Below, piece by piece: positions 11,263-46,142 of a stretch of DNA of 48,086 nt. Origin of the DNA: Acidobacteriota bacterium. GTDB taxonomy: Bacteria > Acidobacteriota > Thermoanaerobaculia > Gp7-AA8. The stretch's first letter is position 1; each line of letters begins with the position of its first letter. Location of the stretch: assembly GCA_021781455.1 (NCBI GenBank), contig JAJXWV010000045.1:1-48086 (forward strand), given 5' to 3'. The notes beneath the pieces are model-generated. The model did not search any database, was not told the DNA's origin, and was given only the letters and a program-made list of their open reading frames with translations. The position numbers and the translations under genes were made by a program.

Positions 11263-11718
11263 AGTGCTGAGTACTGAGTGCTGAGTACTGAGTGCTGAGT
11301 ACTGAGTACTGAGTGCTGAGTGCTGAGTGACTCTCGCCGAAACTCGGTCGCGACCCCTTCACCAAAACGCGAACTGGAGAGGCGGCGCGGCCGCCGTGAG
11401 AATTTAGCGTTGGCCGTCAGGCCGCCGGAACGAGCGGTCACGACAGCGAACGAGGGCGCGAAGTGCCCGACAGAATTGCGGTTAGTGGTTACGCGGATCT
11501 GTCGCGCGCTACGCGTGCTCAGACGCTGGTCTTGGTTGATCGGACGGCGGCCTGACGGCCGCCGCTAGATTCTTACGGCGGCTTCGCCGCCTCATCGCTC
11601 GGCGGCTCCGCCGCCTTGACACAGGCACCCATCCGACGTGGACAGCCGTGGTGCTGAGTACAGAGTGCCAAGCCCGGCCGCTCTTACTCAGGACTCAGCA
11701 CTCAGGACTCAGCACTCG
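11263..11718. repeat. Nested palindromes: inverted CTGAGTR heptamer arrays around a second inverted repeat
   Basis: Most of the 540-base gap between thyA and lysA is repeats. A left array (11263-11332) has about nine heptamers alternating AGTGCTG and AGTACTG. Two more units lie at 11650-11670. A right array (11686-11718) reads the other strand, ACTCAGG/ACTCAGC. Inside these, 11389-11426 and 11546-11582 form an imperfect inverted repeat of about 38 bases (GGCCGTCAGGCCGCC and complement), followed by GGCGGCTTCGCCGCC-type small hairpins (11575-11616). The central part (about 11427-11545) shows no gene I recognise. Confidence 0.85.
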
Positions 11719-23551: not shown

Positions 23552-23724
23552 GTAGGGACGCGCAGCAGCGCGTCCGCAATCCCGGTTCACGCGTAGGGAC
23601 GCGCAGCAGCGCATCCGCCCGGTTCACGCGTAGGGACGCGCAGCAGCGCGTCCGCAACCCCCGTGCTGGACGTCCACACAAGACAAACGACCAGAGCTGC
23701 GGACGCGCTGCTGCGCGTCCCTAC
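23552..23724. repeat. REP cluster, left of the RAYT gene (three forward, one inverted copy)
   Basis: Forward copies of the GTAG-headed REP lie at 23552-23579, 23593-23618 (one base changed in the core) and 23630-23657, joined by GGTTCACGC spacers. The inverted copy is 23696-23724. The array begins six bases after the sulfatase-fold gene and ends just before the transposase stop. Confidence 0.92.
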
Positions 23725-24311: not shown

Positions 24312-24375
24312 GACATCACGCTACCTCGGTCCGTTGATTTCCGGTTGCCTTCTACAACCCGTAGATACGTTCAGT

Positions 24376-24562
24376 GTAGGGACGCGCAGCAGCGCGTCCG
24401 CAATCCCGGTTCACGCGTAGGGACGCGCAGTAGCGCGTCCGCAACTCTGGTTCACCTGTAGGGACGCGCAGCAGCGCGTCCGCAACTTCCGTGATCCGCT
24501 AGGACGTCCGCAAAGAAAGACGAGACGACGAAGGCTGCGGACGCGCTGCTGCGCGTCCCTAC
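24376..24562. repeat. REP cluster, right of the RAYT gene (three forward, one inverted copy)
   Basis: Forward copies are at 24376-24403, 24417-24443 (AGTAGCG in place of AGCAGCG) and 24458-24485; the inverted copy is 24534-24562. With the hairpin at 24596 this accounts for almost all of the 337 bases between the transposase start and the TonB receptor stop; I see no gene there. Confidence 0.92.
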
Positions 24563-31720: not shown

Positions 31721-31790
31721 TGTGAAATTGAAAATTTAAAATTGAAAATTGAAAAGGAGGAGCGGGCATCCTTTTCAATTTTCAATTTCG
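31721..31790. repeat. Inverted TTGAAAA heptamer arrays between convergent genes
   Basis: The left arm 31721-31755 reads TGTGAAA, TTGAAAA, TTTAAAA, TTGAAAA, TTGAAAA, GGAGG; the right arm 31769-31790 reads TCCTTTTCAATTTTCAATTT. The arms pair over about 20 bases around a short GC loop. The array starts two bases after one stop and ends just before the opposite stop, so a two-way terminator role is likely. Confidence 0.88.
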
Positions 31791-33202: not shown

Positions 33203-33268
33203 AGGAATTGAAAATTGAAAAGAGGCCGCCCTGCTTTTTCAATTTTCAATTTTCAATTTTCAATTCGC
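33203..33268. repeat. Inverted TTGAAAA/TTTTCAA heptamer arrays upstream of def
   Basis: The left arm 33203-33224 has two and a half units (GAGGAATTGAAAATTGAAAA) and the right arm 33234-33268 has four and a half units of AATTTTC. Only about ten bases separate them. They lie between the def start and the stop of the cNMP-binding gene. The AT content contrasts sharply with the surroundings. Confidence 0.88.
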
Positions 33269-35583: not shown

Positions 35584-35611
35584 GCGGTCCGCGGTCCGCG
35601 GTCGGCAGTCT
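35584..35611. repeat. GCGGTCC heptamer array after rpe
   Basis: Four 7-base units GCGGTCC, GCGGTCC, GCGGTCG, GCAGTCT lie just beyond the rpe stop. They are in the opposite orientation to the array immediately upstream of rpe (36294-36335), so rpe is enclosed by an inverted pair of one family. Confidence 0.8.
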
Positions 35612-35614
35612 CTC

Positions 35615-36280
35615 TCATGCCCGCAGACCCGTAACAGCGCTTCGGATCGACTGCATTGCAGCGGATCGGTCGTTTTTGCCGAAAACGGCCGAACCGGCGA
35701 CCAGAATCGTTGCGCCCGCGCCGACAACGAGCGGTGCCGTCCGGGCGTCCACCCCACCGTCGACCTCGATTTCCACTGCCAGGCCGCGATCCGTGATCAT
35801 CCGTGAGATTTGACGGATCTTCGGCACCACAGGTTCGAGGAACGTCTGGCCGCCGAAGCCGGGATTGACGGTCATCACCAGCACGTAATCGCAGAACTCC
35901 AGGGCGGTCGTCAGCGATTCGGCCGGGGTGGCGGGATTGATGGCCACGCCCGCGAGCGCCCCGCCGTCACGAATCAGTTGCAGTGCGCGCTGAAGATGTG
36001 CCTCTGCCTCGAAATGCACGGAGATCATGTTCGCGCCGGCCTCGAGGAACGCCGCGATGTATTGCTGCGGGTTCGAGATCATGAGATGGCAGTCGAACCG
36101 AAGCCGGCTGTGCGCCCGGCAGGCCTTCACGATCATCGGCCCGATGGTGATGTTCGGGACGAAGTGGCCGTCCATGACGTCGAGGTGCAGCAGGTCCGCG
36201 CCCGACTCGACGGCGCGCAGCTCATCGGCCAGCATCGAGAAATCGGCCGACAGGAGCGAGGGTGCGATCTTCACGTTCAT
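35615..36280 (-). CDS. rpe: Ribulose-phosphate 3-epimerase
   Basis: This enzyme interconverts ribulose 5-phosphate and xylulose 5-phosphate in the pentose phosphate pathway. The 221-residue TIM barrel carries APSLLSADFSML, the metal ligands in HLDVMDGHFVPN and DCHLM, the catalytic aspartate in EVDGGV, VNPGFGGQ, and the phosphate-binding end VAGSAVFG. It is flanked on both sides by GGTC-type heptamer arrays. Confidence 0.97.
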   Translation of the reverse strand: MNVKIAPSLLSADFSMLADELRAVESGADLLHLDVMDGHFVPNITIGPMIVKACRAHSRLRFDCHLMISNPQQYIAAFLEAGANMISVHFEAEAHLQRALQLIRDGGALAGVAINPATPAESLTTALEFCDYVLVMTVNPGFGGQTFLEPVVPKIRQISRMITDRGLAVEIEVDGGVDARTAPLVVGAGATILVAGSAVFGKNDRSAAMQSIRSAVTGLRA

Positions 36281-36293
36281 GATTCTCTCGACT

Positions 36294-36438
36294 CAGACCA
36301 CAGACCACGGACCGCAGACCGCGGACCGCAGTTGAACGCGTGACGGGACAGCGTGATCGCCAGCGCTTTCGGCGCGAATCTCGGACTCCGCCGCTGTGGT
36401 CCGTGGTCCGTGGTCTGTGGTCTGTGGTCTGCGGTCTC
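36294..36438. repeat. Inverted pair of GTGGTCC/GGACCAC heptamer arrays
   Basis: The left arm 36294-36335 reads CAGACCA, CAGACCA, CGGACCG, CAGACCG, CGGACCG; the right arm 36395-36438 reads TGTGGTC, CGTGGTC, CGTGGTC, TGTGGTC, TGTGGTC, TGCGGTC. The loop is about 60 bases. The structure spans the gap between the rpe start and the stop of the PASTA gene. Confidence 0.9.
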
Positions 36439-40948: not shown

Positions 40949-41120
40949 ACCAGAGCGCAGAGGGCAGATCGCAGGTGGGGTCAGCGCGAGCGACCTGACT
41001 CGCGTAGGGACGCGCAGCAGCGCGTCCGCAACTCCGGGGTCGCTTCATGACCAGTGCGCAAAAATGTCAGAAGGCACCGCCTTGCCTGCGCTCTGCGATC
41101 TGCCCTCTGCGATCTGTAAG
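40946..41120. repeat. Inverted CTGCGAT/CTCTGCG heptamer arrays with a REP between them
   Basis: The left arm 40946-40974 reads AGACCAG, AGCGCAG, AGGGCAG, ATCGCAG; the right arm 41086-41120 reads CTGCGCT, CTGCGAT, CTGCCCT, CTGCGAT, CTGTAAG. Between them lie about 110 bases that contain one GTAG-headed REP (41004-41032). The array begins at the PHP gene stop and ends just before the stop of the convergent outer-membrane protein gene. Confidence 0.85.
41004..41032 (+). repeat. Single GTAG-headed REP
   Basis: This is a single forward copy of the GTAG-headed unit with the GGACGCGC-AGCA-GCGCGTCC hairpin, identical in core to those near the RAYT gene. It sits inside the loop of an inverted heptamer pair. 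Confidence 0.9.
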
Positions 41121-42972: not shown

Positions 42973-42998
42973 GGGTAGCGGGTAGCGGGTAGGGACGC
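42973..42998. repeat. GCGGGTA heptamer array, left of the four-helix-bundle gene
   Basis: Three 7-base units (GGTAGCG, GGTAGCG, GGTAGGG) lie about 80 bases before the four-helix-bundle gene. The complementary array lies right after its stop (43451-43484). Confidence 0.85.
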
Positions 42999-43075
42999 AG
43001 TCCGAGGTACGATCGGTTCCCCCACACTGTTCGAGGTCTCTTCTTCCGCGGCTGTCCGATCGCACCAGACATTGG

Positions 43076-43447
43076 ATGGCCAAGAGTACTTTTCGTGAAC
43101 TTGTCGCGTGGCAGAAAGCGATGAGGCTGGCAGCAGGCGTTTACGATGCCACGGCTTCGTTTCCACGCGCAGAGGTCTTTGGGATCACGCAGCAACTGCG
43201 GCGGGCAGCCGCGTCCGTTCCCAGCAATATTGCTGAGGGAAGAGGTCACGGCAGCGCCCGCGATTACAGACGATTTCTCTACAACGCTCGTGGATCGCTC
43301 TTCGAACTGCAGACCCAGCTGCTTCTTGCCAAGGACTTGCACTACCTCGCTGATTCGAGGTGTGAAGGATTGGTGAATGCCACCGAAGAAGTGATCCGCA
43401 TTGTGAACGGACTCATCCATTATCTCGAGCGGGCTCTTACGGGATAA
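43076..43447 (+). CDS. Four-helix-bundle (S23/bIVP-type) protein
   Basis: This 123-residue protein belongs to the family first described as the protein of 23S rRNA intervening sequences (TIGR02436-type). It starts with the family hallmark FRELVAWQKAMRLAAGVY, then FGITQQLRRAAASVPSNIAEG and DYRRFLYNARGSLFELQTQL, giving four helices that form a pentamer in known members. Here it is a stand-alone gene, not in rRNA, and its function is unknown; relatives include Avd of diversity-generating retroelements. It is bracketed by an inverted pair of GCGGGTA arrays. There is no clear SD before the ATG at 43076. Confidence 0.9.
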   Translation: MAKSTFRELVAWQKAMRLAAGVYDATASFPRAEVFGITQQLRRAAASVPSNIAEGRGHGSARDYRRFLYNARGSLFELQTQLLLAKDLHYLADSRCEGLVNATEEVIRIVNGLIHYLERALTG

Positions 43448-43450
43448 CCT

Positions 43451-43484
43451 CCCCTACCCGCTACCCGCTACCCGCTACCCGCTT
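43451..43484. repeat. CTACCCG heptamer array, right of the four-helix-bundle gene
   Basis: Four 7-base units of CTACCCG (the complement of the left array) begin four bases after the gene stop and end four bases before the pyk stop. Together with 42973-42998 they form the ends of a roughly 510-bp gene-carrying unit. Confidence 0.88.
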
Positions 43485-44922: not shown

Positions 44923-45025
44923 AGTGCTGAGTCCTGAGTCCTGAGTCCTGAGTCGAAGCGCGGAGACCCTGCGATGCCACTCAGGACTCAGCACTCAGCA
45001 CTCAGCACTCAGCACTCAGCACTGC
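44923..45025. repeat. Inverted CTGAGTC/ACTCAGC heptamer arrays between pyk and the DAHP synthase gene
   Basis: The left arm 44923-44957 has four to five units of AGTCCTG/AGTGCTG; the right arm 44978-45025 has six to seven units ACTCAGG/ACTCAGC. The loop is about 20 bases. It is the same unit family as the arrays between thyA and lysA. It occupies the whole gap between the pyk start and the DAHP synthase gene stop. Confidence 0.9.
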
Positions 45026-46060: not shown

Positions 46061-46084
46061 TGGGGGTCCTCGGGAATGCGCGAA

Positions 46085-46142
46085 GCGGGCAGGGGGGAGC
46101 GGGCAGGAAACCCCTGCCCGCTGCCCGCTGCACGCTGCCCGC
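46085..46142. repeat. Inverted GCGGGCA/CCCGCTG heptamer arrays upstream of the DAHP synthase gene
   Basis: The left arm 46085-46107 has GCGGGCA, GGGGGGA, GCGGGCA; the right arm 46113-46142 has four units CCCGCTG/CACGCTG. The loop is about five bases, so a strong hairpin should form. It lies in the divergent gap between the DAHP synthase gene and the gene at 46229, where promoters must be. Confidence 0.88.

Follow-up and report, generated by a model that had tools for sequence, protein, structure and literature searches.

Genes for S23-family proteins lie between inverted heptamer arrays in many bacteria and may belong to mobile elements with word-matched satellite hairpins

The window, i.e., the whole stretch of 48,086 nucleotides analyzed here, belongs to a 4.88 Mb draft genome in 90 contigs (G000) of an Acidobacteriota bacterium. 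Between pyk and an outer-membrane protein gene, it contains an element of ~510 bp in which a gene for an S23-family protein, preceded by a short leader, is enclosed by inverted arrays:

42973-42994, no strand: left (5') arm and outer end of the element, a GGGTAGC heptamer array of period 7, 22 nt, fully complementary to 43452-43473
42995-43075, plus strand: leader from the left arm to the start codon, with CCGAGGTA (43002-43009) and CCACAC (43022-43027)
43076-43447, plus strand: S23 (23S rRNA intervening-sequence protein) gene, 123 aa, four-helix bundle, PF05635 and TIGR02436
43452-43483, no strand: right (3') arm, a CTACCCG heptamer array, 4 bases past the S23 stop codon

The arms, GGGTAGCGGGTAGCGGGTAGGG on the left and CCCTACCCGCTACCCGCTACCC at 43452-43473 on the right, are 22 nt each, 100% complementary and 457 nt apart. 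Both are built of GGGTAGC/CTACCCG repeats (lineage word, GCGGGTA), and the right period-7 array spans 43454-43483. The original prediction of an S23-type gene between GCGGGTA and CTACCCG arrays, with four bases between its stop and the right array, was thus borne out by perfect arms and, to the base, by the interval 43448-43451. The right arm also lies 4 bases beyond the stop codon of the convergent pyk. The S23 transcript is predicted to fold with its arms paired (z = -6), and an RNA family search of the window yielded no Rfam match. In the leader, CCGAGGTA and CCACAC, which are common to one S23 subgroup, are inferred to be a possible promoter; CCACAC is present in 14 of 93 S23 leaders (3 expected), and GAGGTA in 15 of 93 (6.5 expected).

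Membership of the S23 family is supported by both profiles, PF05635 (E=4.8e-35; 120 bits for a curated cut-off of 33.8) and TIGR02436 (E=4.8e-36; 123 bits for a cut-off of 24). The protein also matches PDB entry 2GSC (XCC0516; E=9.7e-21), which is the best structural match of its predicted, helical model. S23 proteins are homologous to Avd, the reverse transcriptase (RT) partner of diversity-generating retroelements. They have remained without a function since their discovery inside rRNA intervening sequences (IVSs) in the 1990s, and we know of no nuclease, recombinase or polymerase motif in them. The solved homologue XCC0516 is pentameric, a toroid of four-helix bundles (pentamer: PMC4990558). 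A second, divergent S23 subfamily with the motif QLLRSGTSIGAN (L158, L095, L096, L098, L099 and relatives; alignment A2) follows the same array rule, with words that are often AT-rich.

Inverted heptamer arrays are not confined to S23 genes. In 0.85 Mb sampled from this genome we found 103 inverted heptamer pairs, with loops mostly of 8-60 nt, and strong arrays numbered 190 for period 7 versus 42 for period 8 and at most 6 for any other period tested. The expectation that loci other than the S23 gene have only short loops held for most of these pairs but failed for long-loop exceptions, such as the first of the following pairs in the window:

11263-11717, no strand: inverted AGTGCTG arrays, 356-nt loop with nested palindromes, no S23
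31725-31788, no strand: solo hairpin AAATTGA, loop of 16 nt
33206-33265, no strand: solo hairpin AAATTGA, loop of 14 nt
36294-36437, no strand: solo hairpin, mixed CAGACCG / CTGTGGT, word family of S23 element L001
40951-41116, no strand: inverted CAGAGCG / CTGCGAT arrays, loop of ~117 nt
44923-45023, no strand: solo hairpin AGTNCTG / ACTCAGN, loop of 24 nt, in the aroF-pyk gap
46084-46142, no strand: solo hairpin GCGGGCA / CTGCCCG, differing by one mismatch from the window's own S23 word

Solo hairpins far outnumber S23 copies, and an S23 word recurs in dozens to hundreds of empty hairpins in genomes with that S23 gene. For a given word, the 5' arm is always on the same strand (18/18, 17/17, 8/8, etc.; 84 hairpins), which is mostly G-rich. 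Arm lengths are quantized in steps of about 7n+2 or 7n+3, with the same sharp peak at 30-32 nt for solos and S23 elements, and the loops of the solos are short and not conserved. The hairpins lie a median of 9 nt after stop codons. We rejected the idea that solos are internal-deletion remnants of S23 elements: among loops longer than 80 nt, only S23 copies match S23, bar one marginal match. Other sequences also occur within heptamer arms. Another family of nested palindromes, of the GGCGGCCGTCAGGCCGCC type or, in G255, of a GAAGCGGCGAAAGATCT type, is enclosed in this way without any S23 at 11263-11717, L159:7985-8488, L160:12188-12538 and L238:15342-15805. A further palindromic repeat family of the window's genome, dispersed repeats of 37-41 bp (GTAGGGACGCGCAGCAGCGCGTCCGCAAC), occurs at 23552-23660, at 24369-24486 and within 40951-41116.

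Enclosure of S23 genes by inverted arrays is general. The genome of the window has eight S23 genes, three of which are clearly enclosed by inverted arrays, with the words ACAGACC, GCGGGTA and AAAATTG. We then used one fixed test, under which a gene counts as bracketed if each side has a period-7 array no more than 260 nt away and the two arrays align as reverse complements with a score of at least 12. It was applied to the retrieved S23 loci of 60 relatives, taken best first and mostly of the same family. Fifty-nine of 94 S23 genes were bracketed, versus 1 of 219 small control open reading frames (ORFs) in the fetched regions (Fisher p ~1e-37); that one is an S23 duplicate, leaving 0/218, and ORFs of any size gave 7/778. 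With other periods, the same test detected none for 4, 5, 10 or 11, one for 12, two each for 6 and 9, and seven for 8. Across the phylum, 24 of 33 S23 loci were bracketed. For 80 named S23 loci from Planctomycetes, Verrucomicrobia, Clostridia, Bacteroidetes, Proteobacteria, Chloroflexi and others the count was 44, versus 1 of 197 neighboring control ORFs (p ~9e-28), and for S23 loci of cyanobacterial plasmids it was 9 of 12. In total, counted before the plasmid set was added, 139 of 215 distinct S23 genes with flanks (65%) passed the strict test, 117 with period 7 and 22 with period 6, 8 or 9. No locus of an RT or a Y1 transposase was bracketed (0/32). The bracketing is not due to chance, and it extends from Acidobacteria to Clostridia, Bacteroidetes and cyanobacterial plasmids.

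These counts are limited by kinship among the loci, by draft assemblies broken at repeats and by the use of one genome per species, and the strict detector undercounts bracketed S23 genes. In many that fail the period-7 test, the inverted arrays are degenerate or have a period of 8, 9 or 6; most of the true exceptions have an array on one side only, and their S23 stop codon abuts the downstream gene. The count proposed by the original prediction came out at ~65% strictly bracketed, and the outcome that would have refuted it, most S23 genes lacking arrays, did not materialize. At five loci (L134, L085, L097, L104 and L080), S23 occupies apparently one orthologous site, between an upstream gene with a conserved C terminus (ANFLTATIAGMLL) and a downstream gene; only the left array remains, the right one being lost, and some S23 copies therefore look settled. 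At L126 / L048 (G005 contig C66:45384-47204), S23 and pyruvate kinase apparently share one open frame of 675 aa with no stop between them and degenerate arrays outside, a possible fusion. Among the very few bracketed non-S23 ORFs is one of 222 aa at 35614-36280 (minus strand) in the window, between inverted GCGGTCC / CAGACCG arrays (35584-36331).

Comparison of orthologous gaps revealed presence and absence of the arrays. The gap between pyk and the outer-membrane protein gene contains an S23 element in G000, G001, G015 and G017 and a solo hairpin of another word in G012. Empty gaps, which the original prediction proposed to look for, also exist: in five relatives (G002, G006, G007, G011 and G016) there is no S23, and the genes are ~70-140 nt apart. 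The aroF-pyk gap is only ~5-13 nt in G002, G010 and G012, and it holds hairpins of different words in G000, G001, G003, G006 and G007. As these two gaps are empty or differently filled, entire hairpins, including the loop, appear to have been inserted, with repeated use of the site. No target-site duplication, which together with a related transposase would mark a MITE of a DDE transposon, was recognized at the compared gaps, and no insertion events between close strains were seen; the relatives compared were different species, without close strains. At some loci the S23 elements are old and common to several genera, and some lack the right array.

Within genomes, the words of solo hairpins match those of the S23 genes. 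In the sampled sequence, 35 of 138 solo words were exactly S23 words of the same genome (null mean, 10); without G000 there were 12 exact matches among 50 versus 1.6 expected, more than in any of 2,000 random draws. We also counted five word patterns genome-wide in the relatives. AAATTGA arrays are present only in G000, G010 and G011, the very genomes in which an S23 is flanked by AAAATTG, and GCGGGTA arrays in G000 and its genus mate G001. GAACGAT arrays occur in G004, G007, G008 and G011, plus a single array in G000, where no S23 owns the word; GCAGAAR arrays in G007, G009, G011, G014 and G015, with none in G000, G004, G008 or G018; and ACTCAG arrays in G000, G004, G009 and G011. With the five words pooled and one mismatch allowed for ownership (G011 counting as a GCAGAAR owner through its AATGCAG word), arrays were found in 17 of 18 owner genomes versus 2 of 36 non-owners. 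The corresponding p value of 6e-11 is too small, because owner and non-owner genomes are kin; despite this kinship, the patchwork of words across genera is hard to obtain otherwise.

Genomes without S23 were also informative. No inverted heptamer pair was detected in ~380 kb from ten S23-free genomes of the same class, and S23 is present in 17 of 19 genomes with ACTCAG arrays versus 137 of 297 overall (p = 7e-5). One exception, G254, has a single array match and two weak matches to the second S23 subfamily. The other, G255, has ~90 ACTCAG matches per strand and neither a PF05635 nor a second-subfamily match, which calls for an explanation. The possibility that array-rich genomes lack S23, which would have counted against the original prediction, is thus not met in general, but G255 does carry arrays without a detected S23.

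The heptamer word differs among S23 lineages and is inherited with the protein. S23 pairs of at least 60% identity have a word in common, within one mismatch, in 62-83% of cases, and pairs below 50% identity in 1-2%. Clades of the S23 tree carry the word families AACGATG, AAAATTG, AAAGCAG/AAGGCAG and ACTGAGT/AGTGCTG, with members at different loci. We infer that non-coding repeats would not outlast such divergence without selection or continuous renewal.

The reading that we favor, with a probability of roughly two in three, is that of a mobile S23 element with array ends and word-matched satellites, whose protein recognizes its own arrays and, with host enzymes, spreads them. The S23-bearing copy would be the autonomous element, consisting of array ends, a short leader and the S23 gene. 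Its protein may recognize its own heptamer array as a folded single strand or hairpin, of DNA or RNA, and host enzymes together with it would insert copies into intergenic DNA. Solo hairpins would then be non-autonomous, word-matched satellites, with a division of labor as in RAYT and REPIN, and the 23S rRNA IVS would be a special case of the mobile S23 element. Anatomy, breadth, word matching within genomes, inheritance of the word with the protein and presence or absence at orthologous gaps are observed; action of S23 in trans, its binding to arrays and insertion via a hairpin are inferences, with no cutting or joining enzyme identified and no direct action shown.

The original prediction had allowed S23 to be either passenger or agent of the array system, and the link itself is supported. 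If a host or other process spread the heptamer hairpins, S23 genes might simply be exploiting them as safe places to land or riding along in one copy. The great excess of solos over S23 copies, the arrays of G255 and the presence of other repeats inside heptamer arms would all fit such a passenger, and the ownerless GAACGAT array in G000 also speaks against an agent, as does the report that the S23 protein encoded by the rRNA element of Coxiella is seemingly not made (PMC4990558). We nevertheless consider a passenger unlikely: the word tracks the lineage of the S23 protein from one locus or genus to another, its hairpins are nearly missing from relatives without an S23 of that word, and RT and Y1-transposase genes are never inside arrays. 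The agent is favored because the S23 word predicts the solo hairpins of the genome and is inherited with the S23 lineage, although spreading driven by S23 is only inferred.

The remaining explanations fare worse. Transcription terminators or mRNA-stabilizing hairpins under selection, with S23 as an ordinary gene needing such ends, would account for hairpins close behind stop codons and for the predicted pairing of the arms in the S23 transcript. However, solos lie between divergent genes as often as background (18/73 versus 71/321 other gaps), orthologous gaps gain and lose hairpins, whose words differ, and control genes have no such arrays. The terminator model was rejected on the gene orientation around solos and is in our view very improbable. 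Still less credence is due to local slippage and template switching as the makers of period-7 palindromes, with the S23 link a mutational by-product of leader or context. Array lengths do vary, and correction of palindromes is known to occur, but words are common genome-wide, lengths are quantized, handedness is fixed, and neighboring genes show nothing similar. No more plausible than slippage is a retroelement, in which an Avd-like S23 and an RT would write the word from an RNA template, as telomerase does. The homology to Avd, the fixed handedness and the inward-pointing 3' ends of the G-rich strand, which suit 3'-end extension, are in its favor, but no RVT_1 gene was found in G004, G007, G008, G010, G018, G034 or G277, all of which bear arrays or S23 (some assemblies being incomplete), and the RT model was rejected as a general one. 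A Y1 transposase as hidden mobilizer was likewise rejected: it is present in most genomes, including array-free ones, is never bracketed and gives only one weak match in hairpin-rich G009; a helper role is not excluded.

The element can be set beside known systems, of which the rRNA IVS is the closest anatomical relative and RAYT with its REPINs, by analogy, the closest working one. IVSs of 23S rRNA with an S23p ORF, in Coxiella and Leptospira, are 428-444 nt long, and that of Coxiella has a stem of 28 bp, with tandem GACAGAT heptamers immediately preceding its ORF (PMC4990558). In both cases terminal inverted repeats enclose the S23 ORF (perfect arms of 22 bp in the window; arm mode, 30-32 nt). 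IVSs occur within rRNA genes, and RNase III excises them from the transcript. The S23 elements described here are situated between protein-coding genes; their arms are arrays, and dispersed solo hairpins of the same word accompany them. The window's element, between pyk and the outer-membrane protein gene, does not share the location inside an rRNA gene, and a short 23S rRNA motif was absent from the S23 loci searched.

RAYT master genes are flanked by inverted repeats of their own class, coexist with many non-autonomous hairpins and are kept vertically for long (PMC3116915, PMC2817692). Genomes with S23 similarly carry dispersed hairpins of the master gene's own class. In contrast to the Y1 HUH transposase, S23 is a four-helix bundle of PF05635 without an HUH motif, and its repeats are tandem heptamers of a lineage-specific word rather than the fixed palindrome of REP. 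Avd is homologous to S23 and, like the solved S23 homologue, a small pentameric bundle; it acts on nucleic acid within a system of mobile type. Unlike diversity-generating retroelements, the S23 elements were found with no RT, template repeat or variable repeat, and RT loci are not near arrays. Dispersed intergenic heptamer arrays are also represented by the cyanobacterial STRRs, by the Xanthomonas GGGAATC repeats, mostly of four units with 70-75 inverted pairs per genome (PMC4692102), and by the TAACTGA repeats of Beggiatoaceae and cyanobacteria, for which no mechanism is evident (PMC4679880). These were described as simple repeats or G-quadruplexes without a link to an S23 gene, and the cause of their spread is unknown; among openly licensed PMC papers we found none linking S23 to arrays outside rRNA. 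At a Phycisphaerae locus (L280), the left-arm word of the S23 element includes TCAGTTA, the reverse complement of TAACTGA (PMC4679880).

Three of the twelve cyanobacterial plasmid S23 loci are in CRISPR-Cas operons:

L381, 1501-1857: S23 between cas10 and a cmr3 family gene, with weaker period-8 flanking repeats
L387, 1492-1851: S23 between cas6 and cas4, with clear inverted heptamer arrays on both sides
L388, 1501-1869: S23 between cas6 and cas4, with clear inverted heptamer arrays on both sides

Because two of these cas-operon S23 genes are clearly bracketed, the 23S_rRNA_IVP genes that others have reported at cas loci (PMC3936711, PMC10910872) may be insertions of the element. A link between S23 and arrays, if true, would explain the presence of S23 genes in CRISPR-Cas operons.

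The findings point to widespread mobile DNA of an unrecognized class, governed by or associated with a protein that does not belong to the known transposases. Whether the S23 family as a whole acts as the agent of a pan-bacterial class with lineage-specific heptamer ends, each lineage spreading its own word without a known transposase, RT or recombinase, and with rRNA IVSs, cyanobacterial STRRs, Xanthomonas GGGAATC repeats and 23S_rRNA_IVP genes in cas loci all among its products, is a wider proposal that we regard as evenly balanced. The origin of the heptamer repeats in cyanobacteria, Xanthomonas and Beggiatoaceae has so far been unexplained. The S23-array link would merge this puzzle and that of S23 function into one testable system, whose logic would be two-component, like that of REPIN-RAYT, but with a new kind of protein.
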